The notes under the pieces: model-generated
What the model saw: only the letters and a program-made list of their open reading frames with translations
The model's database searches: none
What the model was told of the DNA's origin: nothing
Shown: positions 1-29,123 of the stretch, piece after piece
How positions within the stretch are numbered: position 1 is the first letter of the stretch
Layout: each line of letters begins with the position of its first letter
Made by a program: the position numbers and the translations under genes
NCBI GenBank assembly: GCA_025937755.1
Contig: JAICQR010000014.1
Coordinates: 1-32,517 of the forward strand
Direction of reading: 5' to 3'
DNA: 32,517 nt
Source: Gemmatimonadales bacterium
GTDB taxonomy: Bacteria > Gemmatimonadota > Gemmatimonadetes > Gemmatimonadales > GWC2-71-9

Positions 1-1271
1 AGCGTCGAGAGCACCAGGTGGCCCGTGAGCGCGGCCTTGATCGCGATGCCGCCGGTCTCCAGGTCCCGGATTTCGCCGATCATGATGATGTTCGGATCCT
101 GCCGCAGGAACGCTCGCAGCGCCGCCGCGAAGCTCAGCCCGATCTCGTTCCGCACCAGCACCTGGTTGATGCCACCGAGGTTGTACTCGACCGGATCCTC
201 GGCGGTCATGATGTTCACTTCATTGGTGTTGATCCGCTGCAGACAGCTGTAGAGCGTCGTCGTCTTGCCCGATCCCGTCGGTCCCGTCACCAGCACCATC
301 CCGTAGGGATTCAGGATGGCCTTCATCAGGTCGGCCTCCGCCTTCGGCTCGAAGCCGAACTTCTGGAGGTCGAGCGTGAGGTTGCCCTTGTCCAGGATAC
401 GGAGCACGATCTTCTCGCCGAACAGCACCGGCAGGGTCGAGACCCGGAAGTCGATGACCCGCGAGCCCATCTTCAGCTTCAGCCGGCCGTCCTGCGGCAC
501 CCGCCGCTCGGCGATGTTCAGGTGCGAGAGGATCTTCACCCGGCTGGTCAGTGCCGCCTTCATCTTGAACGGCGGCTTCATGATCTCCTGCAGCGCGCCG
601 TCGATCCGGTACCGCACCCGGATTTCGTGCTCGAACGGCTCGATGTGGATGTCGCTCGCGCCCCGCTGCACCGCGTTCTTGAGAATGCCCTCGACCAGCT
701 TGACCACCGGCGCGTCATCGATCTGCGCCTGGGTGGCCAGTTCCTCTTCCTCTTCGTCGACCACCTCGACGTCGTCGCCCTGCTCCTCGAACTCCTTGAG
801 GATGTTCTGGAACTGCTGGTCAACTGCGTTGCCGTAGTGCTTGTCGATCAGGGATCGCAGGGTGAACTCGCCCGCGAGCACCGGGAAGACATCGTACCGG
901 GTGATGAACTTGAGGTCGTCCACCAGCCCCAGGTTGGTCGGGTCGGCCACCGCCACCGTCAGCGTCCGGCCTTCTCGCTTGAGCGGCAGCACCACCTGCT
1001 TCGACGCAACGTCGGGCGGAATCAGCCGCAGGATCCGGGCGTCCACCTCGAATCGGCTCAAGTCCACCGCCGGCATCCGGTACTGCCGCGCCAGCAGCCG
1101 GGTCACGTCCAGCTCGGTGGCAAACCCCAGCTTGACCACCGCCAGCCCCAGCCGCGACTTGGAGGCCTTCTGCTCGGCCAGCGCCTGGCCGAGCTGATCA
1201 CGCGTGATCAGCCCTTCCTGGAGCAGGATCTGCCCGAGCTTCTCCGTCTGCTGGGCCGCCGCAGTCGCCAT
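1..1271 (-). CDS. pilB: Type IV pilus assembly ATPase PilB (GspE/PulE family), 3' end cut by window edge
   Basis: This is the cytoplasmic hexameric ATPase that powers type IV pilus extension. The open frame runs off position 1 without a stop, giving 423 codons. The N-terminus (LGQILLQEGLITRDQL, about residues 12-27) and a MshEN/GspE_N domain (to about residue 150) are followed by an acidic linker (VVDEEEEEL). The core then shows the ASDIHIEP motif, Walker A GPTGSGKTTT near residue 330, the Asp-box region TAEDPVEY and Walker B NIIMIGEIRD near residue 394. The His box and any zinc-binding cysteines would lie beyond the window. An in-frame ATG 16 codons upstream (position 1319) is possible, but that stretch has AT-richer third positions like non-coding DNA, so 1271 is preferred. 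Neither start has a convincing Shine-Dalgarno. It lies 86 bp downstream of a co-oriented comEA-like gene, which suggests a pilus/competence pairing. Family assignment is very secure; PilB rather than GspE is an inference. Confidence 0.93.
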   Translation of the reverse strand, partial: MATAAAQQTEKLGQILLQEGLITRDQLGQALAEQKASKSRLGLAVVKLGFATELDVTRLLARQYRMPAVDLSRFEVDARILRLIPPDVASKQVVLPLKREGRTLTVAVADPTNLGLVDDLKFITRYDVFPVLAGEFTLRSLIDKHYGNAVDQQFQNILKEFEEQGDDVEVVDEEEEELATQAQIDDAPVVKLVEGILKNAVQRGASDIHIEPFEHEIRVRYRIDGALQEIMKPPFKMKAALTSRVKILSHLNIAERRVPQDGRLKLKMGSRVIDFRVSTLPVLFGEKIVLRILDKGNLTLDLQKFGFEPKAEADLMKAILNPYGMVLVTGPTGSGKTTTLYSCLQRINTNEVNIMTAEDPVEYNLGGINQVLVRNEIGLSFAAALRAFLRQDPNIIMIGEIRDLETGGIAIKAALTGHLVLST

Positions 1272-1357
1272 TGCTGATCCGAAAAGGGAATTGCCAAGGA
1301 GCCCGAAGGCCGCACTCATAGCCAGCCACGGGCCAGACCGCAGAGCCTTGCACCCCC

Positions 1358-1996
1358 TCAGCGTACGTCCAGACGGGGACGCAACTTGGCCACTGTTGCC
1401 GGGCCTATTCCGGGCACCTTCTCCAGGTCATTGATGCTCGCAAATGACCCATGCGCCTCGCGATACGCCACGATGGCCCGGGCCCTTCCGGGCCCTATAC
1501 CCGGCAAACCGGCCAGGTCATTGGCTGAAGCGGAGTTGAGTTGCAGAATCGGGGCCGAGGGACCCACTCCCGAAGGGGAATTGGGGGGTCGCTGCCCCCC
1601 CACGCTTCCAACCGTGCCCGAGAGCCGGACCATCTCCCCTATCCGCCCCAGCGTCGCCTCGCCCACCCCAGGCACTGAATCCAGCCCCGCCAGCGACCCG
1701 AACGGTCCGTGCTCTGTCCGGTACTCCACGATACGGACCGCCAGTGACGGTCCCACCCCCGGCAACCGGTCAATCTCCCGCGCTGGCGCAAGGTTGATAT
1801 CCACCAGTTCCCCCGGCGCCAGCGGCTCGGCGACCCGCTTGGCACTGTCACGCTGGGCGGCGACCGAGGCCTCGTCTGCCCTGAGGATCGTGATACCGCC
1901 CGGTGCATCGCCGGGGTCGAGCAGCCACCAGCGCACCCCCTGCCCCGCGACCGCGAGGGCGAGGAGGATGACGACGGCACGATGGTCAGAAGACAT
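1358..1996 (-). CDS. ComEA-like membrane-anchored helix-hairpin-helix DNA-binding protein
   Basis: The 212-residue protein has one N-terminal membrane segment (about residues 7-25, VVILLALAVAGQG then VRWWLL) and two ComEA-type helix-hairpin-helix modules. The first spans about 66-125, with RLPGVGPSLAVRIVEYR and SVPGVGEATLGRI. The second spans about 153-208, with GLPGIGPGRARAIVAYR and KVPGIGPATVAKL. ComEA proteins bind double-stranded DNA outside the inner membrane and, with a type IV pilus, pull it in during natural transformation. Typical ComEA has one such domain; the tandem copy joined by a G/P-rich linker (about 128-150) is less common. The gene precedes pilB on the same strand. A 14-bp inverted repeat sits 2 bp before the ATG and there is no clear ribosome binding site. 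The family is secure; a role in competence is inferred. Confidence 0.85.
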   Translation of the reverse strand: MSSDHRAVVILLALAVAGQGVRWWLLDPGDAPGGITILRADEASVAAQRDSAKRVAEPLAPGELVDINLAPAREIDRLPGVGPSLAVRIVEYRTEHGPFGSLAGLDSVPGVGEATLGRIGEMVRLSGTVGSVGGQRPPNSPSGVGPSAPILQLNSASANDLAGLPGIGPGRARAIVAYREAHGSFASINDLEKVPGIGPATVAKLRPRLDVR

Positions 1997-2160: not shown

Positions 2161-2514
2161 TCAGACTTTGAGCGATTGATAGAGCTTCCACGTCATGCGA
2201 GCGGCAGCGTCACGCTGACGTTCCACCACCTTCCATTCGTCGGAACTCAGGATCCCGAGGTCCCGCGCCAGCCGCAGCAGATAGCCGACCTCCGACAGCG
2301 AGCCAAGCGAAGTATCCAAGTACTTTCTAAGCTCGCCCGAACCTCGCTTGGCGTAACCCTCCACGATATTGTTGGGCGCCGACACGGCTGCGCGTCGAAT
2401 CTGGGAGATCATGCCGTAGCGCTCCCGGTCGGGCCACCTGTGAGTCACCTTGTGAATGGTCAGCGCCAGTTCGTGGCAAAGTTGCCAGGCCAGTAGCCGC
2501 TCGTATGGCTTCAT
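2161..2514 (-). CDS. Four-helix-bundle protein, S23/23S rRNA intervening-sequence (IVP) family
   Basis: This 117-residue all-helical protein opens with MKPYERLLAWQLCHELALTI and contains YGMISQIRRAAVSAPNNIVEGYAKRG-type sequence, the hallmark of the S23/IVP four-helix-bundle family (usual length about 110-130). Members were first seen in insertions in 23S rRNA genes but are mostly found as free genes; they form pentamers and their function is unknown. ATG 2514 was chosen because the family starts at this motif; an in-frame TTG at 2559 would add 15 unconserved residues. The gene stands alone, with 164 bp downstream and about 220 bp upstream that hold nothing recognisable. Codon third positions are visibly less GC-rich than in neighbouring genes, which hints at transfer. 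Confidence 0.85.
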   Translation of the reverse strand: MKPYERLLAWQLCHELALTIHKVTHRWPDRERYGMISQIRRAAVSAPNNIVEGYAKRGSGELRKYLDTSLGSLSEVGYLLRLARDLGILSSDEWKVVERQRDAAARMTWKLYQSLKV

Positions 2515-2733
2515 GCTGACTATCTGCCACCGTCCAGCAAACCTGCCTAACCACTGCAACGCGGGCCTGACCAGAAATCAGCAAGAGACCTCCAGAGACC
2601 GCCCGGCAGAGCTTCGCGGCTCCGCAACACCGCTGCGCGACCGCCGGTAATAGCGCCATGCAACCGGAATGACGCGATGCGACCGCCAGTCCGAACGCCG
2701 GCCACAGGTGGGGCATGGTGTGACCGCCCTGAC

Positions 2734-3681
2734 TCACATCGCTTCAACCGTCGCAATGACTTCCAGCGCCACCGTCCCCACGATCCCCAGACTCTCGGCG
2801 CTGATCTTGTCCATCGTGTCTTCCGGCGTGTGCCACCAGGTGTTGCCCGGACCATACGAGAAGTCCACCACGTCGATCGCCCGGATGCCGCCCCTCTGGA
2901 GTTCCACGTGATCATCGGTGAGGCTCATGCCCTCGTGTCCCACAAACACCGACGAATAGCCGGCATTGGCCGCTGCGTTCCACACCAGGTCCACTACTTC
3001 GGGCGCGCCGATCAGCGAGTTGCCCTCGCGCTGGAGCCGCAGGTCCCGGTCGCCCACCATGTCGAACAGCACCGCGAACAGTGGTGGCGGGGTCAGCTGG
3101 TTGGCGGCGTAGTATCGGCTCCCGATCATCACGTCGACTTGGGGCCGCGCCGAGAAATCGCCGTAGTCCTCGCCGTCCACGAACAGCAGGTCCACCCCGA
3201 CAGACGGCGGGATCAAGTCGAGCGCATCGGCCACGCCCAGCAGCACTGCCACACCCGACGCGCCGTCATTGGCGCCCGGCACCGGAACGTCCTGCAATTC
3301 CGGCACGGCTGCATCCGACATCGGGCGCGTGTCCCAGTGCGCCAGCAGCAGGATCCGCCGCGTCGCCGAGGGATTGAATTGCGCCAGGAAATTCACCATC
3401 GGCAGCGACTCACCCGCCTGGGTCACATGGGTCCAGCGCTGGGTGAGAACCGTGTCCGCCTTGGTCCGAAGCAGGCTGTCGAGCCACCCGGCCATTGCCT
3501 CGTGACCTTGCTGGCCCGGCACCCGCGGTCCGAAGGCCACCTGGGTGCCGGCGTACTGCAGTGCCTGCCCCCCGTCGAACGACCGGGGATTGACCAGTGT
3601 CGAGTCGTCGCATGCGATTGCGCCGGCCGCGAGCAGCGTGACGAGAAGGGCCATCGGCGCCCACCTCCGGGGAATGGTCAT
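2734..3681 (-). CDS. M28-family lipoprotein, glutaminyl-peptide cyclotransferase-like
   Basis: This 315-residue exported zinc enzyme has a lipoprotein-type signal with Cys24 (LLAAGAIAC). The M28 core is complete: LLLAHWDTRP (H115, D117), PGANDGASG (D139), FVDGEDYG (E171 as base, D172), LFDMVG (D207), a TDDHVELQRGG segment and WWHTPEDTMDKIS (W283-H284). The Trp-His pair, the DGED...GSRYYA spacing and the DDH segment match secreted glutaminyl cyclases (one zinc, with D/E/H ligands) more than generic M28 aminopeptidases. Glutaminyl cyclase would convert N-terminal Gln of exported proteins to pyroglutamate. Its ATG overlaps the sprA stop (ATGA), and GGGAGA lies 6 bp upstream as a ribosome binding site inside sprA, so translation is probably coupled. 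M28 membership is near certain. Cyclase rather than aminopeptidase activity is an inference, helped by the Q-after-signal-peptide pattern in this window. Confidence 0.85.
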   Translation of the reverse strand: MTIPRRWAPMALLVTLLAAGAIACDDSTLVNPRSFDGGQALQYAGTQVAFGPRVPGQQGHEAMAGWLDSLLRTKADTVLTQRWTHVTQAGESLPMVNFLAQFNPSATRRILLLAHWDTRPMSDAAVPELQDVPVPGANDGASGVAVLLGVADALDLIPPSVGVDLLFVDGEDYGDFSARPQVDVMIGSRYYAANQLTPPPLFAVLFDMVGDRDLRLQREGNSLIGAPEVVDLVWNAAANAGYSSVFVGHEGMSLTDDHVELQRGGIRAIDVVDFSYGPGNTWWHTPEDTMDKISAESLGIVGTVALEVIATVEAM

Positions 3682-6600
3682 CGCAGGTCTCCCGCGAAGA
3701 GCCGCAGCTCGAAGCTGACGGTCATGTAGATGGTCGAGATCCGGCGACTCAGGTGTGACGCATCATTGAGCAGATAGCCGAAGTCCAGTCCCCCTCGCAG
3801 GAGGTCGGCAAGGTCGGTCGCGAAGCTCGCCGACACTTCCCGGCTGGTGGTGTTGCTGATGATCGAGCAGCCGTCGGTATCCGGCCGGTCCAGACATGTT
3901 GTGCCCTTGTCAGAGCGGAACGTCAGCGACGAGGAGATCCGCTTCCGGGTCCTGCTCACCGACTGCGGCAGCCGGAAGGACCAGTTCAAGGCTCCGGACA
4001 GGTTGCGCGAATCAGACTCTGTGATGGTGCCGTTGTTCTCGCTCGACTGCCCGTTGTCCGTGAGTCGCAGCGTGAGGCCGACCCCGTTCCGGAAACCCAG
4101 CTGGAGGTCCGGCATGAACGAGCGCGACTCGATTGCACTGGTAAGGGTGGAGTTGCCCGACACCGGCTGGACCGTCGTGCCCGAACGGTTGCGCCATGTG
4201 GTCCCCAGCGACATCAGCGTGAGTGGGCCGCCGCGGAATGCCTGCGACCACCGCAGCGACGTGGTCGGCCACTCGGTCTGATCGGTGTGGATCTCGCGCC
4301 GGAGTCCGCCGGCAAGCTGATAGCGGATCGCCTCGGTCTGGCTGGCGCCGAGCGAGAAGGTGAGTCCGAACGGCAGATCCGCGCCGGTAGTGACCGAGCG
4401 CGTCAGCGTCGTGCCCGCACCCAGCGCATTGGTGCCGAACTGCCCGAGGAAGTGCTCCATCCCGCCCATGGCAAACTGGTAGCCGAGCGTGGGTTCGAAC
4501 GCCGCGAGGTCGAACGTCGACGTCCGGGTCCGGCGCTGCGTCAATTCCAGCGGGCGGAGCCGCGCCAGGGCGCGCCCGAGGCCGGCACTGTCACCCAGCG
4601 TGAGCGTCACCAGTTGACCAAGGTCAACCGACGCGCCCAGCTCGGTCGACTGGCTGTTGTTGAGCGTCTGCGGCAGCACGAACCCGCCCAGCGTATCACC
4701 GTCGATCTGGACCGGCGGCCGGCTGGTCAGACTGCGCGAGAGGGTGAAGCCGGACCGCCGGACGTATCGGGGCCGGAGCCAGCTCGAGATGCGAGGTGCC
4801 AGCTGGAAGGTGCTGCTCAGTTGCCGGTCGCGCTCGACGCCCACGTCCATTCCCAGGAATCCCCGCCGGGAGGCGCCGGCCAGCCGGCCTATCGCGGTCG
4901 AATCGCCGTAATGCCGCAGGTCCCTGGTGCTGGTCATGTCCAACCCCAGCGTCAGCATGCCGAGCGGCTGCCAGCTCATGCCGGCCGAATTGCGCCAGAC
5001 GTGATTGAGCGTCGTGGTGGGCGCGATGAGGCTGTCCACGTCGCGTGCAATCGCCACCTGGAAGGCCGTGAGTTCGCCCCGGTCCCGCACCAGTCCGCTG
5101 GAGAACCTGACATTGCTGGGAGCGATACCCAGCCGCGTCTGGCCCAACGCTCGATCCAGTTCAGTGCCGCGGAGGAAGCCCGGCACCAGCGGGCTTAGAT
5201 CCACCACCGGGCCGGCCCGGCCAAGCAACAGGTTGTAACCGACCGAGACATTTGCCGAATTTGCATTCGACTCGCTTAGTTCGGTTTGCGATGAGCCCCG
5301 GATCAATCCGAACCCGATCGTCAATGGGTCGATCAGGCCGCGCACCAGCCAGTTGGAACCCCGGCGCGACCGGCGAAGTGCCACTTGATAGCTCGCGTTC
5401 CACGACTTGGGCTTCCGTAGCGCAGCGAGCGAACTGCCCCGGATGTCGGTGCCCGTGATCAGCGTCGGGTCCACTGACGCCCGGGTAAAGCTGACGGTGG
5501 CCGGCATCGCAATGCCGAGCGACGGCGGCAGGAACCGGTCCAGCCGCCAGGTGCCGGCCACCCGCATGTCGTCGGTGGTCCGGAAGGTCGGCCGGTTGCC
5601 GATCTGCCGGAAATGGCCGTCCTGCTTCACAAACGACACCGAGATGTCGCCCACGTCCGAGGCGACCAGCCGCGCGTCCAGCGCCAGTGCCGCGCCTGCC
5701 TCCGACACGGGCTGGGTGAGCCGGATGTCGTCGATCCACACCTCGGCTTCGTCCAGCGGCCCGAAGTCTCCCACCCGGTACAGTCCGGCGCTGAGTTCCT
5801 GCACCGATGCCAGATTCGGCGGATTGATGCCGGGACTCGCCACCTGGATCATGTACGGGCCGTCGCACGCGACGTAGGCACCGGGCTCGCCACCGCACTC
5901 GGCGGCGCCCGATGGTGCCTCCCCGCTGAGCCAGCGTTGCTCGACGCTGGCGCGGAGCTCGCGCCACACCTCGAGGTCGATGACCATCTCCGGCTCCCAG
6001 GTGGTGGTCAGCGCCGGCGCACGGTAGAGGTAGAAGTTGCGATCATCGCTGCCCAGCTTCACGAACGCCTGGAGGTCACCCCGCTCCCAGCCGTCGCCGT
6101 AGCCCCGCGTCCACACCCGCAGCTCGCGGTAGTTGAGCAGGTTCTGGGCACCAGCCGGGAATCGCAGGTAGGCTTCCGCCCGCTCATTCACCTGCAGGCC
6201 TCGCGCGATGACCCGAAGCGACTTCTCGTTCACCTGGGTGCCCAGCTGGTTCTGGCCCGCATTGCGGTCGTTGAGCGAGCCGCGCACCCCTGGCGGGGAC
6301 TGATAGTTGACTTCGACGTTCTCGGTGGAGACGGTGGCGGTGAGCACCTCGCCATGCGGCTGTCCAATTGCGCCCGACAGCCCGGCGATCGGACTCTCCG
6401 CCCGCCGTGACCATGGAGCACCTACCAGCCGAAGCCGGCTCAGGGCAAGCCGCGCGACCACGTCCTCGCCATCGTCGGGAGGGGCCACAAAGGTGACTCG
6501 CAGATGCTGCACCAGTCGCAGGTTGGGAGCACCCAGCGAAATCGCAGCATCGCTCCGGAGCGGTATGCGGTAGAGCACAAATCCCGCCGGCCGGCCGCCC

Positions 6601-9600
6601 GCGTCCATGATCTGCAACCCGCGGCCGGGGACGATGTAGGTGCTGTCACCGATCGGCACCACGTAGCGCATCACGCTTTCGCCAGCACCCGTCGCGTTGA
6701 GCAGGTTGTCACCGTTGAGATCCTCGGTGTCCAGCACGCCGTTGCCGTTGCTGCACCGCGAACTGAGGTCGCCCCAGGGAAAGACCAGCACTTGTGCGGT
6801 CAGGAGTCGTTGACAGAGCGGCAGCTGCTCCACCTGCTCGCCGTTCACCGCGATCGTATCAGGTCGGTCGCCCAGGATGCCGATGTCGTCGGTCGAGGCA
6901 TTGAAGATGCCGTCGGCGCCTCGCTCGGTGTCCAGCTTGCCCTGCCCCACCAGTTGCCGCCCGGTAAACACGGTATCGCTGCCGGTCGTCACCAGCGCCG
7001 TCGGTGCAATGCCCACCGCGTCCTCGTTGACGGTGCCGAGATCGATCACCAGCTGCAGCCCGGCCGAGTCGGCGCTGTGCAAGCCAGACTGGTAGACGTA
7101 GAACTCGAGATACTCGGTGCGCGACAGATCGAGGCCGGTGGGACTCAGCGAAGTGACGAACGACCGCCACCTGGGTTGGAGGGGCCGCGGCTCGAAGGAC
7201 CACGCCGACGACCGGTCGGGTCGCACGAAACCACCGGCGGTATCCGCATGGAAGGTGGTCCACAGCACTGTCTCGAACTGGTCGCCGCTCCCGGCCAGCA
7301 CGATCGTCGTGTCGATGTCCTGCGGCCGCAGCTGGACGGTGCGCCCGTCCGGACCTGGCACCAGGTTCTGCCACGTCATCTGCACTGCGTCGTCCGGATT
7401 GAAGGCGCCGATCCCCAGAGAAGGATCGAGGCCATCGGTCGACTGCGGGGCGGACGCGAAGCGCCAGTTGGTTTCCCGCAGTGATACCGCGATGGCCTGG
7501 TCGCTGTCGAACTCCTCCAGATAGGCCGCGCCCGACCGATTGGGGTCCGGTTTCGAGATCGCGAGTTCGGCGTTGATGTCCAGCCGGGACGGCGCCGTGG
7601 AGGTGCCGCTCACCACCCGGTTGAGCATGCGAGTGATCGCATCCGACTGGAAATGCAGATCGGTGACGATCCCGCCCACCATGTTGGCCGAGGCCTCGAA
7701 GCCGAGTTGCGGGCGATTGTACGCCGAAGCTTCGCGCTGGAACACCCCGACCAGGTTGACCGAGCCCATTCGCCCCAGCGAATACCGCGACGTCAGCCCC
7801 ATGATCGTGGTGGGAGCGATCGCAAAGAGGTCCTGCTGCTCGAACCGTGCCCGGACCGTTCCGGCGCCTGCGCCGAAGAGCGCTTCCGGATTGCTGAACG
7901 TCAGCAGGCCCGAGAGGTAGTCGATGCTGTAGTCCACGCCCCGGACCAGGAGGCGGTTGTTGACCTCGATCTGCTCGCTCTCCTCCTTGATCTGGATGGC
8001 GCCGAGGTCGAGTCTCGATCGGTCGGTGCCTGAGGCCGCCGAGTACTGGAGGCGGAACTGGAAGCGCGAGGGTGGACCCTGCGAGGAGAGCACCAGATAG
8101 AGCGGCGTGCGGTAGAGCGAGTCGGTGACTTCAACCGGGGTCAGCCGCGATGGATCGGCGAACGGCGTCAGGTGCGGCATCACCACGTAGGATTCCCGGA
8201 TCACGTCTTCGGCACCAGGATCGCGCGATCGGGGAAACAACCGGTTCTCGCGGTCGAAGCGCGCGGGATCGGTCGGCACGGCGATGTCGAGCTGCGCCAG
8301 GTAGGTCGGCGCGCCGCCGGCCGGCCGTTCCGACCGGTTGAGCGAGATCGCAACCTCCAGCGACGAGCGGTCGAGATCGCTGCCTGCCACCCGGTATACC
8401 TGGCGCATCTCGTGCCGGAATGTGCCGGATGAAGGCCCGCGCCGGGGCTCCACAATCAGCTCCAGCGAGTCGATCTCGGCGGGCCGGTCTGCGCTCGGGA
8501 ACGACCCGACAGGATCGCCACCCACCGTGGTGTAGCTGACGGCCAGATAGTCGTTCGGATCCAGCTTCGATGCCAGCGCGAACCAGAGCCCGCCCGGCTC
8601 GACGTAGTAGTCGCGCCCGGGAACCAGCAGCTCCCACTGCACACCCTCATCCGGCTGCGCCACGCCGACCACCTGGGAGGGATCGGCGCTGTTCCTCGCA
8701 TACGCCTTCACCCCGCCGATGATCGGGGTGGCGCTACTGCCTCCGAGCGCCGCGCGGTAGCGATACACCCGAACCTCCTGGGGTCGCTGGAGCGCCGGCA
8801 ATGCGGCGGCGTCGACGTTGAGAATGTCGATGGCCGGATAGCCCGACAGCCGGGTCGGATCGACCACCCAGTAGAACCGGCCCGACTCGAAGTCCACGTC
8901 GCGCAGCAGCCGGTCCTGGGGCACGCGGGTCGACTCGCCGCCGATCTGGAACACCCGCTCGCCTACCGAACTTCCCTTCTGGGTCGCGAAGAGCGCCTGG
9001 AACTGGAGCGGACCCACATCGAACAGGCCGTTGATACCGAAGTTGGAGCTGGGAACCGCCGCCGTCAGGAATCTCGAGGCAGGAGGACGGAAGGTGACCG
9101 TACCCACTTCGAGGCGGCGGATGATCTCGTCCTGCAACCCCTCGTAGTAGACCTGAATCAGGTTATTGGCGCTGAAGTCCCGCTGCGACTGGAAGTCCAC
9201 AGTGACGTGGACCCGCTGCCCCAGAAGCCCCGCCGCCCGGACATCGATGAAGTTGTCCAGCCGGGGCGCCCGGATGCGTCCACCACAATTGGAATTCGGA
9301 TCCTGCAGCTCGAAGGCGGTGCACCGCTCGTTCTTGACCCGCTCGGTCCGGATATCGAGCGACGCTTGGCCATCGATGGCGAGGTCGGCATACTTCCGGT
9401 CGATCCCCAGCAGTGACGGGCGCTCGGGTGCCGCCGTCGAATCGGCTGCACCACGGCCATAGATGGCAAATGCCCGGAGGGTTCCTGCCCGGACCCGGCG
9501 CGCCGAGTCGAGCGCACTCGACATCGCACTGTCGAACGCCACCAGACTCCGGGGGGCGCCCAGCCAGGGCGCCCGCACAGCATCGGGCGTGTCGAACTGG

Positions 9601-9728
9601 AACCGGGGCAGGTCGAACGTGGCACTGGCGCGCGGCAGAGAGTCAGGCACCTGCGCCTCGAGGGCGGACGCCAGCGAAAGGGACAACATCAGGATCAAGC
9701 CGGCGGAAAGGCTTCGCGCCACGCTCAC
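3678..9728 (-). CDS. sprA: SprA-family outer-membrane translocon protein (type IX secretion SprA/Sov)
   Basis: This 2016-residue protein has a signal peptide ending ALEA|Q (A25/Q26 from the GTG at 9728). SprA/Sov of Bacteroidetes forms a very large outer-membrane barrel that carries T9SS cargo across. SprA signatures are visible: LDPNDYLAVSYTTVGGD (about residue 395), AAYLEEFDSDQAIAVSLRET followed by NWRFASAP (about 730-760), the calcium-loop-like NGNGVLDTEDLNGDNLLN (about 990-1005), and LNYRELRVWTRGYGDGWERG followed by DLQAFVKLGSD (about 1195-1235). The long C-terminal half is amphipathic, barrel-like sequence. It is shorter than Flavobacterium SprA (about 2400). The frame stays open upstream to 9800 through a promoter-like region; GTG 9728 was chosen because the signal peptide follows directly. 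No Shine-Dalgarno is seen. The stop overlaps the cyclase start, and lptF diverges upstream. Confidence 0.9.
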   Translation of the reverse strand: MSVARSLSAGLILMLSLSLASALEAQVPDSLPRASATFDLPRFQFDTPDAVRAPWLGAPRSLVAFDSAMSSALDSARRVRAGTLRAFAIYGRGAADSTAAPERPSLLGIDRKYADLAIDGQASLDIRTERVKNERCTAFELQDPNSNCGGRIRAPRLDNFIDVRAAGLLGQRVHVTVDFQSQRDFSANNLIQVYYEGLQDEIIRRLEVGTVTFRPPASRFLTAAVPSSNFGINGLFDVGPLQFQALFATQKGSSVGERVFQIGGESTRVPQDRLLRDVDFESGRFYWVVDPTRLSGYPAIDILNVDAAALPALQRPQEVRVYRYRAALGGSSATPIIGGVKAYARNSADPSQVVGVAQPDEGVQWELLVPGRDYYVEPGGLWFALASKLDPNDYLAVSYTTVGGDPVGSFPSADRPAEIDSLELIVEPRRGPSSGTFRHEMRQVYRVAGSDLDRSSLEVAISLNRSERPAGGAPTYLAQLDIAVPTDPARFDRENRLFPRSRDPGAEDVIRESYVVMPHLTPFADPSRLTPVEVTDSLYRTPLYLVLSSQGPPSRFQFRLQYSAASGTDRSRLDLGAIQIKEESEQIEVNNRLLVRGVDYSIDYLSGLLTFSNPEALFGAGAGTVRARFEQQDLFAIAPTTIMGLTSRYSLGRMGSVNLVGVFQREASAYNRPQLGFEASANMVGGIVTDLHFQSDAITRMLNRVVSGTSTAPSRLDINAELAISKPDPNRSGAAYLEEFDSDQAIAVSLRETNWRFASAPQSTDGLDPSLGIGAFNPDDAVQMTWQNLVPGPDGRTVQLRPQDIDTTIVLAGSGDQFETVLWTTFHADTAGGFVRPDRSSAWSFEPRPLQPRWRSFVTSLSPTGLDLSRTEYLEFYVYQSGLHSADSAGLQLVIDLGTVNEDAVGIAPTALVTTGSDTVFTGRQLVGQGKLDTERGADGIFNASTDDIGILGDRPDTIAVNGEQVEQLPLCQRLLTAQVLVFPWGDLSSRCSNGNGVLDTEDLNGDNLLNATGAGESVMRYVVPIGDSTYIVPGRGLQIMDAGGRPAGFVLYRIPLRSDAAISLGAPNLRLVQHLRVTFVAPPDDGEDVVARLALSRLRLVGAPWSRRAESPIAGLSGAIGQPHGEVLTATVSTENVEVNYQSPPGVRGSLNDRNAGQNQLGTQVNEKSLRVIARGLQVNERAEAYLRFPAGAQNLLNYRELRVWTRGYGDGWERGDLQAFVKLGSDDRNFYLYRAPALTTTWEPEMVIDLEVWRELRASVEQRWLSGEAPSGAAECGGEPGAYVACDGPYMIQVASPGINPPNLASVQELSAGLYRVGDFGPLDEAEVWIDDIRLTQPVSEAGAALALDARLVASDVGDISVSFVKQDGHFRQIGNRPTFRTTDDMRVAGTWRLDRFLPPSLGIAMPATVSFTRASVDPTLITGTDIRGSSLAALRKPKSWNASYQVALRRSRRGSNWLVRGLIDPLTIGFGLIRGSSQTELSESNANSANVSVGYNLLLGRAGPVVDLSPLVPGFLRGTELDRALGQTRLGIAPSNVRFSSGLVRDRGELTAFQVAIARDVDSLIAPTTTLNHVWRNSAGMSWQPLGMLTLGLDMTSTRDLRHYGDSTAIGRLAGASRRGFLGMDVGVERDRQLSSTFQLAPRISSWLRPRYVRRSGFTLSRSLTSRPPVQIDGDTLGGFVLPQTLNNSQSTELGASVDLGQLVTLTLGDSAGLGRALARLRPLELTQRRTRTSTFDLAAFEPTLGYQFAMGGMEHFLGQFGTNALGAGTTLTRSVTTGADLPFGLTFSLGASQTEAIRYQLAGGLRREIHTDQTEWPTTSLRWSQAFRGGPLTLMSLGTTWRNRSGTTVQPVSGNSTLTSAIESRSFMPDLQLGFRNGVGLTLRLTDNGQSSENNGTITESDSRNLSGALNWSFRLPQSVSRTRKRISSSLTFRSDKGTTCLDRPDTDGCSIISNTTSREVSASFATDLADLLRGGLDFGYLLNDASHLSRRISTIYMTVSFELRLFAGDLR

Positions 9729-9812: not shown

Positions 9813-11306
9813 GTGCCACTGCTCTCACGCTACGTGTTGGGACGGCTGGTGGCGCCCTTCCTGTTCGCGCTTGCCGCGCTCACCGGCTTCATGCTGCTGA
9901 GCCAGGTGGCCAAGCGCTTCGAGCAGCTGACGGGCAAGGGGCTCGGCTGGCAGGTCATCGCCGAGGTGTTCGGTCTCTCCCTGCCCTTCATCCTGGCGCT
10001 GACCATCCCGATGGCGGTGCTGGTCGCCGTGCTGTTCGCCTTCAGCCAGCTGGCGGCCGACAACGAAGTCACCGCCATGCGAGCCAGCGGCGTCAGCGTG
10101 GCCCAGTTGGTCGGCCCGGTACTGGTCGCCGCGCTCGCCATGACTGCTTGCACCTTTGTGTTCGTGGACCAGGTGCTGCCCCGCAGCAATACCCGGCTGC
10201 GGAATCTCTACTTCGACATCGCCCGCAAGAAGCCCACTTTCGAGCTCCATGAACAGATCATCAACGCCATTCCCAGTTCGAACTATTTCGTGCGGGCGGC
10301 CGGAATCGACCAGCGGCGCGGCATCATGCACAATGTTGCCATCTATGATCTCGAGGGACAGTGGAGCCGCCGGGTCATTTATGCCGACAGCGGCAGGATG
10401 GCGGTCTCCGCTGATGGCTCGGACCTGGTCCTCGAACTGCAGGTCGGCGAAGTCCACGAGTTCCCGGCGTCGGAACCGGCAGACTTTCGCCTGATCGGGT
10501 TCCAGTCGAACCGGGTCGTGCTCCATGATGTATATGACGAACTCCAGCGCAACACCGGCGCCGTCGTGCGCGGTGACCGCGAGATGAGTTCCTGCGAGAT
10601 GCTGGATATCGTGCGACAAGCCCGGCGGGAGGCCCGGCAGGCCGGCCGGGACCGCAGCGGCCTGCTGGAGCGCGACCTCCGCTACCTCGCGGGCGTGCCG
10701 GCCGCTGCTCCACCGTCGACCTCGCCCGAGCCCAGATCCGGCTACTGCGCCTGGCTCGACGCGCTGGGTCGCCTCGTGCTTCCTAGGACGGCCGAAGCGC
10801 AGGACAGCGCACAAGCTCCGGCGCGCGGGCTCAACCTCAAGTTGCCTGACTCTTCAGTGCGGCGGAGCCCACCCGCAGCGATGTCCACCTGGGGCGAAAT
10901 CGCGACCACGGTTTCCACCGCTGACTTCGCCGCGCGCCGCGCGGCCCAGTACGCGGTGGAGGTCCACAAGAAATGGGTCATCGCCGTCGCCTGCATTCCC
11001 TTCGCCCTCGTGGCCATCGTGCTCGCGCTGCGCTTCCCTCGCGGTGGCGTCGGGCTGGTCATTGGCGGAGCCATGGCCGTGTTCTCGGTCTTCTGGGTTG
11101 GGCTCACTGCCGGTGAAGCGCTCGCGGACAAGCATTACGTCGCGCCCTGGCTGGCCATGTGGAGCCCGATACTCATTCTCTCGACCATTGGGCTCGCGGG
11201 GCTGATGCTGGTGAGCCGTGAAATGGGTTCGACCCGGGGCGGCGACTGGGAAGAAGTGTCCCAGTGGTTCCGGGACCTTGTCCGGCGCCGGAAGCGGGCG
11301 GCCTGA
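9813..11306 (+). CDS. lptF: LPS export permease LptF/YjgP family (first of pair)
   Basis: This is an inner-membrane permease of the LptB2FG transporter, which extracts lipopolysaccharide and passes it to the periplasmic bridge. The 497-residue protein has N-terminal membrane segments at about 8-30, 50-75 and 98-118, with the family motif around NEVTAMRASGVS. A periplasmic beta-rich domain follows, then three C-terminal membrane segments (about 393-413, 418-438, 450-470). It is longer than usual (about 350-400): roughly residues 250-365 are an Arg/Ala/Pro-rich low-complexity insert before the last membrane bundle. Translation starts at GTG 9813, with AAGG about 12 bp upstream. The stop overlaps the next start (TGATG), so it forms a coupled operon with lptG. 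F and G assignments follow gene order and could be swapped. Confidence 0.88.
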   Translation: MPLLSRYVLGRLVAPFLFALAALTGFMLLSQVAKRFEQLTGKGLGWQVIAEVFGLSLPFILALTIPMAVLVAVLFAFSQLAADNEVTAMRASGVSVAQLVGPVLVAALAMTACTFVFVDQVLPRSNTRLRNLYFDIARKKPTFELHEQIINAIPSSNYFVRAAGIDQRRGIMHNVAIYDLEGQWSRRVIYADSGRMAVSADGSDLVLELQVGEVHEFPASEPADFRLIGFQSNRVVLHDVYDELQRNTGAVVRGDREMSSCEMLDIVRQARREARQAGRDRSGLLERDLRYLAGVPAAAPPSTSPEPRSGYCAWLDALGRLVLPRTAEAQDSAQAPARGLNLKLPDSSVRRSPPAAMSTWGEIATTVSTADFAARRAAQYAVEVHKKWVIAVACIPFALVAIVLALRFPRGGVGLVIGGAMAVFSVFWVGLTAGEALADKHYVAPWLAMWSPILILSTIGLAGLMLVSREMGSTRGGDWEEVSQWFRDLVRRRKRAA

Positions 11307-12388
11307 TGCGCCTGCGGCTGCTGGATCGCTACGTACTCCGGTCCTGGATCAGGCTTTTCCTGGTCACCGCTGTGGGCTTTCCGGTTGTCGCTGTGCTCAC
11401 CGAGATGGTGCAGGAACTCAACGACCTGCTGGGACGGGGCCTCACGGTTCGCCAGGTTGTGGTGAGCTACCTCTACGGCATCCCGGCCTGGGCCTCGATC
11501 GTCATGCCGGCCGCAGTGCTGTTCGCCACGATCTTCACCGTGGGCAACATGGCCCGGCATTCCGAGGTCACCGCGGCCAAGGCGGGCGGCGACAGTTTCA
11601 ACCGTCTGGTGGCTCCATTGTTCGTGGCCGCAATCGGGGCGGTACTGCTCGCTGTCGCGGTGGGCGAATTGGCCGTGACAGCCAGCGCCCGGCAGGTGGA
11701 ATTGCAGAAGGAGCCCGCGAGCCGGAATCCGTCGGGCAGATACAACTTCGTGTACCGGGCCGACGACGGCTGGGTCTTTGCTGTCCGCATGCTGGATGTG
11801 GCGGACGACGCCATGCGCGACATCGTGCTCGAACGTGCGGGAAGCGGTCCTGACTATCCCACCCTGGTGATCCGGGCCGACAGCGCCACCTGGAGTGATT
11901 CATCGGATGCGTGGACCATCTGGCAGGGCCAAAGCCGGGTGCTCCGCTCGCCCACCCAGCTTGCGACCTTTCTGTTCGACCGAATGGAACTCCACGCCAT
12001 GACCGGGCCGCCGGAATCGTACCTGGCCGAGAATCGCGATCCCAAGGCCATGCGCTACGCCGAGCTGGGACGCTACATCCAGTCCATGCAGCGGGCCGGC
12101 AACGCCTCCGGAAAGCTCGAGGTGCGCCGGGCCCAGCGCATCGCCATTCCGGCCGCCTGTCTCGTCATTGCCCTGTTCGGGGCACCGCTGGCCATGGCGG
12201 CACCACGCTCCGGTTCGGCCTTCGGCGTGGGGGTGAGCCTTGGCGCTACCATCATCTACATCCTGCTGGCGCAGATCGCCATCGCCATGGGTGACAGCGA
12301 CCTCTTCCATCCGGTCGTGCTGGCGTGGCTGCCCACGATCCTTTTCCTGCTGGCGGCGCTGGTGCTGCTCAACCGGGTGCGGTCGTGA
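11306..12388 (+). CDS. lptG: LPS export permease LptG/YjgQ family (second of pair)
   Basis: This 360-residue second permease of the LptB2FG complex starts RLRLLDRYVLRSWIRLFLVT. Membrane segments lie near residues 14-34, 55-80 and 100-120 (with NMARHSEVTAAKAGG, the counterpart of the LptF NEVTAMRASG motif). A periplasmic domain spans about 125-275 and three membrane segments close the protein. ATG 11306 shares its A with the lptF TGA, so the start is set by translational coupling; an in-frame upstream GTG at 11264 lies inside lptF and is unlikely. The length is normal for the family. No lptB, lptA or lptC is in the window. The gene ends within the first arm of the long inverted repeat that separates it from the convergent TonB receptor. 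Confidence 0.88.
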   Translation: MRLRLLDRYVLRSWIRLFLVTAVGFPVVAVLTEMVQELNDLLGRGLTVRQVVVSYLYGIPAWASIVMPAAVLFATIFTVGNMARHSEVTAAKAGGDSFNRLVAPLFVAAIGAVLLAVAVGELAVTASARQVELQKEPASRNPSGRYNFVYRADDGWVFAVRMLDVADDAMRDIVLERAGSGPDYPTLVIRADSATWSDSSDAWTIWQGQSRVLRSPTQLATFLFDRMELHAMTGPPESYLAENRDPKAMRYAELGRYIQSMQRAGNASGKLEVRRAQRIAIPAACLVIALFGAPLAMAAPRSGSAFGVGVSLGATIIYILLAQIAIAMGDSDLFHPVVLAWLPTILFLLAALVLLNRVRS

Positions 12389-15879: not shown

Positions 15880-17820
15880 GTGAGAACCCCAAACAGCGAT
15901 TCGACCCGCACGCTGCGCCGCCTGGCGTGGACCGCCACTGGCCTCTCCGTCGCGCTCATCACCTTCGGCGGAATCGTCCGCATCACCGGTTCCGGCATGG
16001 GGTGCGGCGACCACTGGCCCCGCTGCAACGGCGCGTGGTTTCCGCCGCTCGACCTCCCCACCGCCATCGAGATCAGCCACCGCTGGATTGCCGCCCTGCT
16101 GAGCATCCTGATCGTCGCGGTGGCCTGGCACGCCTGGCGGCGTCACCGGAACAACCCGCGGCTGCTGCTCCCCGCCCTGCTGGCGCTGGTGCTGCTGATC
16201 GTCCAGGTGCTTCTGGGCGCAGTGACCGTCAAGCTCGAACTTCCGGCCGGGGTGGTCATCGCCCACCTCGCCAATGCCATGTTGCTGCTGGCGGCACTCC
16301 AGGTCACCGCATTGCGTGCCGCCGAGCCGCCCGGCCGCCGAGCCGCCGAGCCGCCGAGCCGTCACCGTTGGCATCCCCTGGTGCTCGCCACCGCCGGCCT
16401 CGGCTTCCTCGTCATCCTCCTCGGCGCCAACGTTGCGAATCTCAACGCCGGCTGGGTCTGTCCCGGATTTCCCCTCTGCCAGGGCAGCGGATTGCTGCCC
16501 CCCGACGTGCCCCTGGGTGCGCTGCACTGGATCCACCGGGTGCTCGCATTCCTGTTCCTCGGTGCCGTGGCTTTCCTCAGCGTGGCGATCTCACGCCGGC
16601 GGGACGAGGCCGCAGACCCGCTGCGTGCCAGCGTCAATGGCCTCCTCGGCGTTACCCTGCTGCAGGTCATCGTCGCGGCCACCATGGTCCTGCAGACCCT
16701 TCCCCAATGGCTCCGCGCTGCGCACCTGCTGGCAGGTACGCTGGTGTGGGTCGCACTGGTGCTGGTGGTTGCCCGCAGTCGCCAGACCCCCAGCGAGACA
16801 GCCGCCGAACCGCCGGCGTCGCCCGAGCCGCCACTCTCGGCTGAGCCGCCGAGCGGGCGAGCCGCCGAGCCGCCGCCGTCAGTATTTCGCGACCTGATTA
16901 CCCTGACCAAGCCTCGCATCATCTCGCTGCTGCTGGTGACTACAGTCTTCCCGATGTTCCTCACCGACCGGGGCATGCCGCCGCTCTCGCTGGTGCTTTG
17001 GGTGCTGCTGGGGGGCTACCTCATGGCCGGCGGTGCCAACGCCATCAACATGTGGTTCGACCGGGACATCGACACCCGCATGGTCAGGACGAAACTTCGG
17101 CCCATTCCGTCGGGCCGGATCTCGCCTGCCGCGGGCCTGGCGTTTGGTGTCGGCCTCGGTGCCGTGGCGTTCTTCATTTTCTACCGGTTTGTCAATTCGC
17201 TTTCAGCGTGGCTCGCGCTGGCCGGACTCCTGTTCTACGTGGTCATCTACACCATGTGGCTCAAGCGGTCGACCACCCAGAACATCGTGGTCGGCGGAGC
17301 GGCCGGTGCCTTTCCGCCACTGGTGGGCTGGGCCGCCATGACCGGCCGAATCGACCTCGCGGCCATCTATCTCTTTGCCATCATCTTCTACTGGACCCCG
17401 CCCCACTTCTGGGCCCTCGCGCTCATCAAGCAGCGCGACTACGCCAACGCCGGCGTGCCCATGATGCCGGTGGTGCGGGGCGAACAGCGCACCAAGGTCG
17501 AGATGCTGCTCTACACCCTGTTCCTGCTGCCGCTCACGCTCATGCCGTCGTTCTTCGGCGCGCTGGGGCCGTTTTATCTGGTGGCGGCGGCACTGCTCGG
17601 CGCCCGGCTGCTCTGGTACTGCATCAAGCTGCTGCGGGAAGACGGCGTGACGCCGACGGCGTGGAAGATGTACAAGTACTCGCTGCTCTACCTCGCGTTG
17701 CTCTTCGCGGCCATGGGCGTGGACCGCGCGCTCCCCTTCGAGCGCCCCCTCCGCGCCAGCAACATGCTGCCCCTCGGCCCGGCTGACAGCGTCCCGGCCA
17801 GTTCTTCACATGAACACTAG
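15880..17820 (+). CDS. ctaA-ctaB: Fused heme A synthase - heme O synthase (CtaA-CtaB)
   Basis: This 646-residue bifunctional inner-membrane protein converts heme B to heme O (CtaB part) and then to heme A (CtaA part) for cytochrome oxidase. Residues 1-300 are CtaA/COX15. All four heme-ligand histidines are present (H67 in EISHRW, H129 in IAHLAN, H219 in IHRVLAF, H282 in AAHLLAG), as are two cysteine pairs (C42/C49, C194/C200). Residues about 335-640 are the UbiA-type farnesyltransferase, with NMWFDRDIDTRMVRTKLRP (390-408) and YTMWLKRSTTQN. The halves are joined by an AEPP-rich linker (308-333), and a second AEPP stretch lies inside CtaA (147-159). Such fusions are known, for example in Thermus. 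GTG 15880 was chosen; no Shine-Dalgarno is seen. The ABC exporter follows after 32 bp. Confidence 0.93.
   Translation: MRTPNSDSTRTLRRLAWTATGLSVALITFGGIVRITGSGMGCGDHWPRCNGAWFPPLDLPTAIEISHRWIAALLSILIVAVAWHAWRRHRNNPRLLLPALLALVLLIVQVLLGAVTVKLELPAGVVIAHLANAMLLLAALQVTALRAAEPPGRRAAEPPSRHRWHPLVLATAGLGFLVILLGANVANLNAGWVCPGFPLCQGSGLLPPDVPLGALHWIHRVLAFLFLGAVAFLSVAISRRRDEAADPLRASVNGLLGVTLLQVIVAATMVLQTLPQWLRAAHLLAGTLVWVALVLVVARSRQTPSETAAEPPASPEPPLSAEPPSGRAAEPPPSVFRDLITLTKPRIISLLLVTTVFPMFLTDRGMPPLSLVLWVLLGGYLMAGGANAINMWFDRDIDTRMVRTKLRPIPSGRISPAAGLAFGVGLGAVAFFIFYRFVNSLSAWLALAGLLFYVVIYTMWLKRSTTQNIVVGGAAGAFPPLVGWAAMTGRIDLAAIYLFAIIFYWTPPHFWALALIKQRDYANAGVPMMPVVRGEQRTKVEMLLYTLFLLPLTLMPSFFGALGPFYLVAAALLGARLLWYCIKLLREDGVTPTAWKMYKYSLLYLALLFAAMGVDRALPFERPLRASNMLPLGPADSVPASSSHEH
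16321..16353 (+). repeat. GCCGAGCC-type repeat inside the ctaA half
   Basis: GCCGAGCCGCC-like units are repeated in a short stretch encoding RAAEPPGRRAAEPPS. It falls in the loop between the fourth and fifth membrane segments of CtaA, so the frame and core fold are kept. The same motif recurs at the CtaA/CtaB junction. Confidence 0.6.
16801..16876 (+). repeat. GAGCCGCC-type repeat at the CtaA/CtaB junction
   Basis: This is a degenerate run of GCCGAGCCGCC/GAACCGCC units encoding AAEPPASPEPPLSAEPPSG and then RAAEPP. It forms the linker between the heme A and heme O synthase halves. It is the same nucleotide motif and reading frame as the copy at 16321-16353. Confidence 0.65.
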
Positions 17821-23979: not shown

Positions 23980-25110
23980 TTACCAGCCCAGGCTGAACGT
24001 GAAGAAGTTGGTGCCTCCCAGTACGCCCATGTACCGGAACGCGTAGTCGAGGCCGATGGCAAAGTTCCCCGCCTCATAGTTCAGGCCGCCACCAACCGCA
24101 ACACCCTGGTAACGCTCCTCATCGTCCAGCGCGGTCTCGTTGGTCACGAGATCGATGTTGTTGGCTGGAGCGTGGCTGTAGCTCGCCCGCAGCCCGAACC
24201 CGAACCCGCTGCCACCCAGACGGCTGGACGCCCACTCCGACCCGAAGGAGAAGCCGGCGCTGTTGCTGGTCATCTGGTTGAAGTCGCCCATCAGCGTCAG
24301 CCGGCTGGTCTCGGCCGCGATGAGGTCGTAGGCCAGCGCCACCCGGAACGTCGTGGGCAGCGGGAAGTCCTTGGTCCGGAACTGGCCCGGCTGCGGCAGG
24401 CTCGGCACTTCGTCCTCACCCGGCAGCGGCGTGCGCGGACCACCGGTGTTGAGCGCGTCGCCGCTGTACTTCAAGTTGGTGCCCAGGTTGGCGAGCACGA
24501 ACGCGAACTTAATCGGGTGATTGTTAAGCGCCGCGTGGAAATTGGTGCCGAAGTCGAGGGCGAACGCGGTACCGCTTGCGTCACCCAGGTTGTCGGCGAT
24601 GACCTTGCCCGTGATACCAGCCGAGAACCGGTCGGAGAAGTTCGAGGCCAGGGTGAGGCCGGCGAACGTCTGGTTGACCGAGTACCGGGCGCCGGTGCCA
24701 TCCGGCTGGTCGGCGGTGTAGACCGGCTGGTCTCCGAATCCGAAGGTGCCGATCTGCGCGCCGAACGTCGTGGTCCCGCCGCTGAAGGGGAAAGCCACGC
24801 CGGCCCAGCTGTAGCGGGTGTCCGCCACATACTCGTACGTGCTGACCATGGCCGAGGGCCGCGACATCAGGGCCGCGCCGGCCGGGTTGTAGTACAGAGC
24901 GCTCGCGTCGGTCGAGATGGCCGGGTAGGCCCCGCCGAGTGCTACGCCCCGGGCGCCGGCGCCGAACAGCAGGAACTCCGCTGCCGTGGTGCCGTAGCCC
25001 GTGTTGTCCTGGTTCGAATCCTGGTTCGACTCCTGCGCCGCGAGTGCCGCGGGCAGGAAGCCCAGGAGCGCCACGACCAGGGCGAAGCGAGGTGCATTGA
25101 ACTGACTCAT
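23980..25110 (-). CDS. PorV/PorQ-family outer-membrane beta-barrel protein
   Basis: This 376-residue protein has a signal peptide ending ALAA|Q (A25/Q26). The family signature follows: FLLFGAGARGVALGGAYPAI then ALYYNPAGAAL (about 40-80). The rest is alternating barrel strands ending FFTFSLGW with a terminal aromatic. PorV in T9SS sits at the SprA gate and takes CTD-bearing cargo to the attachment complex; PorQ works in the sortase complex. Related FadL-like barrels also occur without a known T9SS role. ATG 25110 has AGGA 5 bp upstream. It directly follows the gene for the CTD-bearing large protein (58-bp gap). The family is secure; choosing PorV over PorQ or a paralogue is not possible from sequence alone, so no symbol is given. 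Confidence 0.85.
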   Translation of the reverse strand: MSQFNAPRFALVVALLGFLPAALAAQESNQDSNQDNTGYGTTAAEFLLFGAGARGVALGGAYPAISTDASALYYNPAGAALMSRPSAMVSTYEYVADTRYSWAGVAFPFSGGTTTFGAQIGTFGFGDQPVYTADQPDGTGARYSVNQTFAGLTLASNFSDRFSAGITGKVIADNLGDASGTAFALDFGTNFHAALNNHPIKFAFVLANLGTNLKYSGDALNTGGPRTPLPGEDEVPSLPQPGQFRTKDFPLPTTFRVALAYDLIAAETSRLTLMGDFNQMTSNSAGFSFGSEWASSRLGGSGFGFGLRASYSHAPANNIDLVTNETALDDEERYQGVAVGGGLNYEAGNFAIGLDYAFRYMGVLGGTNFFTFSLGW

Positions 25111-25135
25111 AAGCTTCCTATCTCCTGGATGTGGA

Positions 25136-25159
25136 GGAGAGCGGCGTGAACCGCTCTCC
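25136..25159 (-). other. Intercistronic RNA hairpin upstream of the PorV/PorQ-like gene
   Basis: Perfect 9-bp arms (GGAGAGCGG / CCGCTCTCC) enclose a 6-nt loop between the large-cargo stop and the PorV/PorQ-like ribosome binding site. There is no T-run. It could block 3' exonucleases or adjust expression between the genes. Confidence 0.45.
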
Positions 25160-25168
25160 CCCTCTGGG

Positions 25169-29059: not shown

Positions 29060-29098
29060 TGCGTCCTCTCCGAATGAAATAGCGAGGAGTGGGCTCCA

Positions 29099-29123
29099 GC
29101 CAGCCGTGATCGTCACGACTGGC
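29099..29123 (-). other. Intercistronic RNA hairpin between TonB receptor and large cargo gene
   Basis: The arms 29099-29109 and 29113-29123 enclose a 3-nt loop. One DNA mismatch (29104/29118) becomes a U-G wobble in minus-strand RNA, giving 11 continuous pairs. It lies 21 bp after the receptor stop, with no T-run. Confidence 0.45.

Follow-up and report, generated by a model that had tools for sequence, protein, structure and literature searches.

The Q-rule of Bacteroidetes describes glutamine at position +1 of signal-peptidase-I substrates, and these N-terminal glutamines are cyclised by PgQC (PMC5837995, PMC10653852). Together with TfQC and BtQC, PgQC (PG_2157) belongs to the bacteroidal type II glutaminyl cyclases (QCs), lipoproteins of the M28 fold with Asp/Asp/His zinc ligands and a catalytic Glu. 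Residues distinguishing QCs from two-zinc aminopeptidases have been described, and a pocket Phe (PgPhe294) was termed conserved in type II QCs (PMC7948796). The bacterial type II fold is also found outside Bacteroidota, in the QCs of Fimbriiglobus ruber and Acidobacteriales (PDB 7d1b and 7d18). The same reaction is proposed for the type I (plant-type) glutamine cyclotransferases (PF05096), beta-propeller proteins of an unrelated fold; plant-type QCs occur in some Bacteroidetes too, and one of them was able to replace PgQC (PMC10653852).

In 2023 the Q-rule was called exclusive to Bacteroidetes (PMC10653852). As the Q-rule and type IX secretion coincide in that group, a connection between them was discussed in 2018, although the data of that study argue against it (PMC5837995). 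Gemmatimonadota are mentioned in neither paper, and a search of the openly accessible literature for a glutaminyl cyclase or Q-rule in this phylum gave nothing relevant among the results listed.

A probable type II QC gene overlapping sprA in a conserved block

We analysed a stretch of 32,517 nucleotides from a Gemmatimonadales bacterium (GCA_025937755.1, contig JAICQR010000014.1, positions 1-32,517), referred to as the window. It carries the following features, in which the gene for an M28-family protein, hereafter the window QC, lies directly downstream of sprA.

3..1319 (-): PilB/GspE-like ATPase of type IV pili or type II secretion, with a Walker motif; cut by the window end
1358..1996 (-): helix-hairpin-helix (HHH) protein (ComEA-like / T2SS K-like), PF12836; the next gene of the conserved block
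2734..3681 (-): M28-family lipoprotein, 315 aa, PF04389 (101 bits), predicted type II QC
3678..3681 (-): ATGA, read 3681..3678, the sprA TGA sharing bases with the QC ATG
3688..3693 (-): GGGAGA within sprA, likely ribosome-binding site of the QC gene, 6 bp from its ATG
3678..9728 (-): sprA, SprA/Sov-type outer-membrane translocon, GTG start, 2016 aa, TIGR04189
9813..11306 (+): lptF/lptG-type permease, PF03739, divergent from sprA; a flank of the block with conserved position
11264..12388 (+): second lptF/lptG-type permease, PF03739

The TIGR04189 SprA profile matches the sprA product with 424.8 bits (cut-off 200). Both junction elements reported in the preliminary description, the ATGA overlap (3681..3678) and the GGGAGA motif 6 bp ahead of the M28 ATG (3693..3688), are present. 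A −4 overlap by itself is common in bacterial operons. Among 22 distinct loci read, and with starts yielding a lipobox preferred at junctions where several starts were possible, the −4 overlap occurs in 11 and an abutting or 1-bp overlapping arrangement in 4, so that sprA and QC overlap or abut in 15; the others have a gap of 8-200 bp (5 loci) or a 2.5-kb insertion (2 loci).

In a survey that sampled the phylum evenly with 150 genomes, SprA was found in 106 and the M28 QC in 107. Both genes lie on one contig in 54 genomes, and in 52 of these QC has the same orientation as sprA and lies downstream of it within 5 kb; a further 19 genomes have the two on separate contigs and 3 more could not be placed. 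The adjacency is therefore not peculiar to this contig. The gene order of the block is lptF-lptG divergent from sprA-QC-HHH-pilB. No SprA flanks any of 80 named Bacteroidota QC genes within up to 10 kb on each side, even though SprA is present in 20 of the 21 genomes searched from that set. As far as searched, the sprA-QC arrangement is a Gemmatimonadota one; PgQC is encoded instead in the PG_2157-2159 operon.

In the window a 23S rRNA intervening-sequence protein (four-helix) is inserted between the QC and HHH genes (2161..2559, -). An open reading frame at 18..1277 (+) was rejected as a conserved gene, since it is antisense to the pilB/gspE-like gene. Elsewhere in the window, a single frame (15880..17820, +) encodes an apparent fusion of CtaA (heme A synthase) and CtaB (heme o synthase).

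The M28 protein has the signature of a type II QC

The residues proposed earlier as QC hallmarks, namely W283-H284, the GED centre (G170-E171-D172) and the DDH segment (D256-D257-H258), are all found in the M28 protein. The sites of interest are as follows.

3610..3621 (-): lipobox AIAC; the lipidated Cys24 precedes Asp-Asp
3265..3267 (-): Asp139, a predicted ligand of the zinc, with Gly140 next to it; aligned to PgQC Asp149-Gly150
3166..3171 (-): Glu171, predicted catalytic residue, and Asp172, predicted zinc ligand, from the PgQC alignment
2908..2916 (-): Asp256-Asp257-His258; mostly Ser-Asp-His in M28 paralogues
2830..2835 (-): Trp283-His284, His284 being the third predicted zinc ligand; aligned to PgQC Trp298-His299

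By alignment, D139, D172 and H284 match PgQC D149, D183 and H299, and E171 matches the PgQC catalytic Glu. The pair D139-G140 is of QC type; the aminopeptidase type has Asn or Asp after the bridging Asp, and M28 paralogues in the window's genome and in other Gemmatimonadota genomes carry D-N or D-D, EE and mostly SDH. Within DDH, the Asp that precedes Asp-His corresponds to human Asp305. The Trp ahead of the zinc His (PgTrp298) is kept in the window QC; in some relatives, and in PDB 7d18, the pair is H-H. Nearly all QC homologues read have a lipobox.

Two bacteroidal features are missing. In place of PgQC Trp193 the Gemmatimonadota alignment has an aliphatic residue, which puts the window QC outside the bacteroidal subgroup and in its sister clade. 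In the 23 aligned Gemmatimonadota QC sequences, the loop that carries PgPhe294 is either shorter or lacks the Phe. This loop is also absent from the F. ruber structure 7d1b, which is titled glutaminyl cyclase and has the same short DFxYxxWH segment as the window QC, so Phe294 is not defining for the wider type II family. Judged from these alignments, the lack of Trp193 and Phe294 marks a non-bacteroidal subgroup of QCs and does not rule out a cyclase function.

Comparisons beyond single residues agree with this placement. The best PDB matches (6qro, 4fuu, 3tc8 and 6qql; E 4e-50 to 1e-45) are QCs or close homologues from T. forsythia, B. thetaiotaomicron, P. distasonis and P. gingivalis, and the best named aminopeptidase outside the QC clade follows at E 3e-9. 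A maximum-likelihood tree, which covered QCs and paralogues and left out animal QCs and named aminopeptidases, gathers the Gemmatimonadota QCs into one group (94/93) adjoining the bacteroidal QCs (100/99); the two are joined at 97/94, separate from the M28 paralogues of aminopeptidase type. Identity to the bacteroidal QCs is 33-41%, and to 7d1b and 7d18, by structure alignment, 29-30%. An AlphaFold model was built with 40 sequences (pLDDT 93.3, pTM 0.92), and the top 50 Foldseek matches of this model are all QCs or close homologues, the first 13 being bacterial (TM about 0.8-0.9) and animal QCs coming next. Taken with the lipobox, sequence, tree and predicted structure bear out the earlier view of a QC-like lipoprotein and argue strongly for a type II glutaminyl cyclase and against an aminopeptidase.

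Glutamine is enriched after signal-peptidase-like sites in Gemmatimonadota

We compared the rate of Gln after the motif [AVSTGLI]x[AGS] in signal-peptide c-regions with that in the mature chains of the same proteins. Signal peptides came from a crude home-made predictor that was given at most about 200 kb of each genome, and the comparison picks no cleavage site, so that it differs from a true per-protein cleavage-site prediction. In the window's genome, Gln follows 21.8% of c-region sites against 3.4% in the mature chain (OR 7.9, p 3e-13), and 26 of its 41 signal-peptide proteins (63%) have a site followed by Gln; the same script gave 43% for Bacteroidota and 13% for E. coli. The pooled enrichment is 5.2-fold in Gemmatimonadota (p 5e-45), similar to the 5.6-fold of Bacteroidota. 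All ten sampled Gemmatimonadota genomes show it, nine significantly, and there was no significant enrichment in E. coli (OR 0.9) or S. meliloti (Sinorhizobium; OR 1.6). The excess peaks at +1, with smaller excesses at +2 and +3, compatible with signal peptides that have several overlapping sites. Window proteins with Gln at such a site are SprA, the PorV-family protein, a GWxTD protein and a TonB-dependent receptor. The predicted signal peptide of SprA ends in SALEA|QVPD, which would make SprA itself a Q-rule substrate.

The type I enzyme is found preferentially where the M28 QC is missing. It is present in 33 of the 43 genomes without M28 QC and in 14 of the 107 with it (OR 0.046, p 1e-13). 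Counted by genus, the sole correction for relatedness that was applied, the anti-distribution is weaker (9/16 genera without M28 QC against 10/59 with it, p 0.003). A QC of either type is thus found in 140 of the 150 genomes and neither in 10, where the M28 proteins found are of aminopeptidase type. In the genomes read, the type I gene is located elsewhere than in the sprA block, and all five type I proteins with readable N-termini, from one genus, have a lipobox (FGAC or FAGC). One genome (G032) combines a type I QC with an M28 QC homologue that has lost its catalytic residues (L134, 8082-8978). The plant-type enzyme able to replace PgQC is a close precedent for such an exchange (PMC10653852).

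These data bear on whether the bias reflects a cyclase at all. Drift or a preference of the signal peptidase could instead account for the +1 Gln, in which case cyclisation would be uncatalysed and the QC would act on only a few proteins. Consistent with this, the bias is kept in three of the sampled genomes that lack both known QCs (G034, G125 and G141; pooled OR 7.7, p 5e-13) and is thus not tied strictly to a known cyclase; in these three it may reflect a third cyclase, assembly gaps or uncatalysed cyclisation. However, a QC is present in nearly all of the genomes surveyed, genomes with one of its two unrelated types tend to be without the other, and Bacteroidetes need the QC that cyclises such termini (PMC5837995, PMC10653852). 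We therefore regard preference or drift as unlikely, and favour a cyclase that serves the glutamine termini generally.

sprA and the QC gene are separable

Coupling of the two genes had led the preliminary description to propose that pyroglutamate formation is part of the SprA export route. The QC would then be a dedicated component, modifying SprA or its cargo at the translocon, with translational coupling setting their ratio. The tight junctions (15/22 loci) and the adjacency (52/54 genomes) speak for this proposal, as does the Gln with which the window SprA and several relatives begin. Two further genes of the window may be relevant here.

23980..25179 (-): PorV/PorQ-family barrel, NF033709 (139.6 bits)
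25169..29116 (-): protein of 1315 aa, its C-terminus matching the T9SS type A sorting domain TIGR04183 at 1.5 bits over the cut-off

The first overlaps the second, which lies upstream, by 11 bp, and the two are a possible SprA shuttle and cargo. In G001, from another family, we counted 33 sorting-domain and 25 PorV-family matches; in most of the 12 Gemmatimonadota genomes searched, sorting domains are rare. The SprA/Sov translocon is common to this locus and the type IX secretion system, but a search of these 12 genomes for the motor protein GldM (TIGR03517) gave no match, the window's own genome being only 80% complete, as against four of four Bacteroidota; most of the 12, which include G000, G001 and G012, have SprA.

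The proposal is not borne out by the distribution of the two genes. They occur together in 76 of the 150 genomes, with 75.6 expected by chance, while 31 genomes have only QC and 30 only sprA. In eleven sprA-less genomes read, QC still lies between lptF and the usual downstream neighbours, sprA alone being gone. Conversely, in G019 and G017, which have a type I QC, and in G141, which has neither QC, the HHH gene comes directly after sprA, where QC would otherwise stand; in G070 two other genes occupy this place. In the complete genomes G069 and G075, which carry both genes, they are more than 1 Mb apart. Since co-occurrence is at chance level and each gene has been lost singly from the same block, the neighbourhood does not show joint function. 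Moreover, the Gln bias is general to signal-peptidase-I substrates and extends to a sprA-less genome (G129), the Bacteroidota QC flanks described above lack SprA, and N-terminal Gln was reported to be no generic sorting signal in P. gingivalis (PMC5837995). We thus consider a dedicated role in the SprA route quite improbable; the sprA-QC partnership is conserved, but its function is unproven.

Discussion

The reading that we hold to be very probably correct is that of a type II QC, anchored to the membrane on the periplasmic side, which is encoded by the M28 gene, serves a general Q-rule in Gemmatimonadota and is not dedicated to SprA. Signal peptidase I would cleave exported proteins so that many or most of them begin with glutamine, which the lipid-anchored QC, using one zinc, would convert to pyroglutamate at the membrane; pyroglutamate would in turn shield the N-terminus against aminopeptidases. 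Of this scheme, we infer the cyclase activity, the single zinc, the inner-membrane site and the protection from aminopeptidases. SprA would be one substrate among many, and the overlap with sprA would reflect co-expression within a conserved block, with QC standing outside the SprA machinery. An unrelated type I QC appears to have taken over the role in other Gemmatimonadota lineages.

It is highly improbable that the protein is instead an aminopeptidase of the M28 family with exported peptides to trim: the M28 fold and the peptidase or aminopeptidase labels in Pfam and in some PDB entries of close relatives would suit it, but the D-N/EE/SDH signature of the paralogues is missing, tree and structure search place the protein with proven QCs, and it tends to avoid genomes with a type I QC.

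The enzyme is therefore of an expected kind in an unexpected phylum. It shares with the bacteroidal type II QCs the lipoprotein M28 fold, the zinc ligands, the catalytic Glu and the D-G and DDH motifs, but forms a separate sister clade, sits in the lptFG-sprA-HHH-pilB block and belongs to a phylum outside the published Q-rule. We think it probable, with somewhat less assurance than for the role of the enzyme itself, that the Q-rule is phylum-wide in Gemmatimonadota and genetically separable from SprA, with two unrelated lipoprotein cyclases repeatedly displacing each other and a third, putative cyclase in a few genera.

The findings argue for annotating such proteins as glutaminyl cyclases instead of aminopeptidases. 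Within Gemmatimonadota there are lineages with sprA but without this QC, with this QC but without sprA, and with an unrelated QC instead. Such lineages let the role of pyroglutamate, in secretion or in general protein stability, be tested by comparison.
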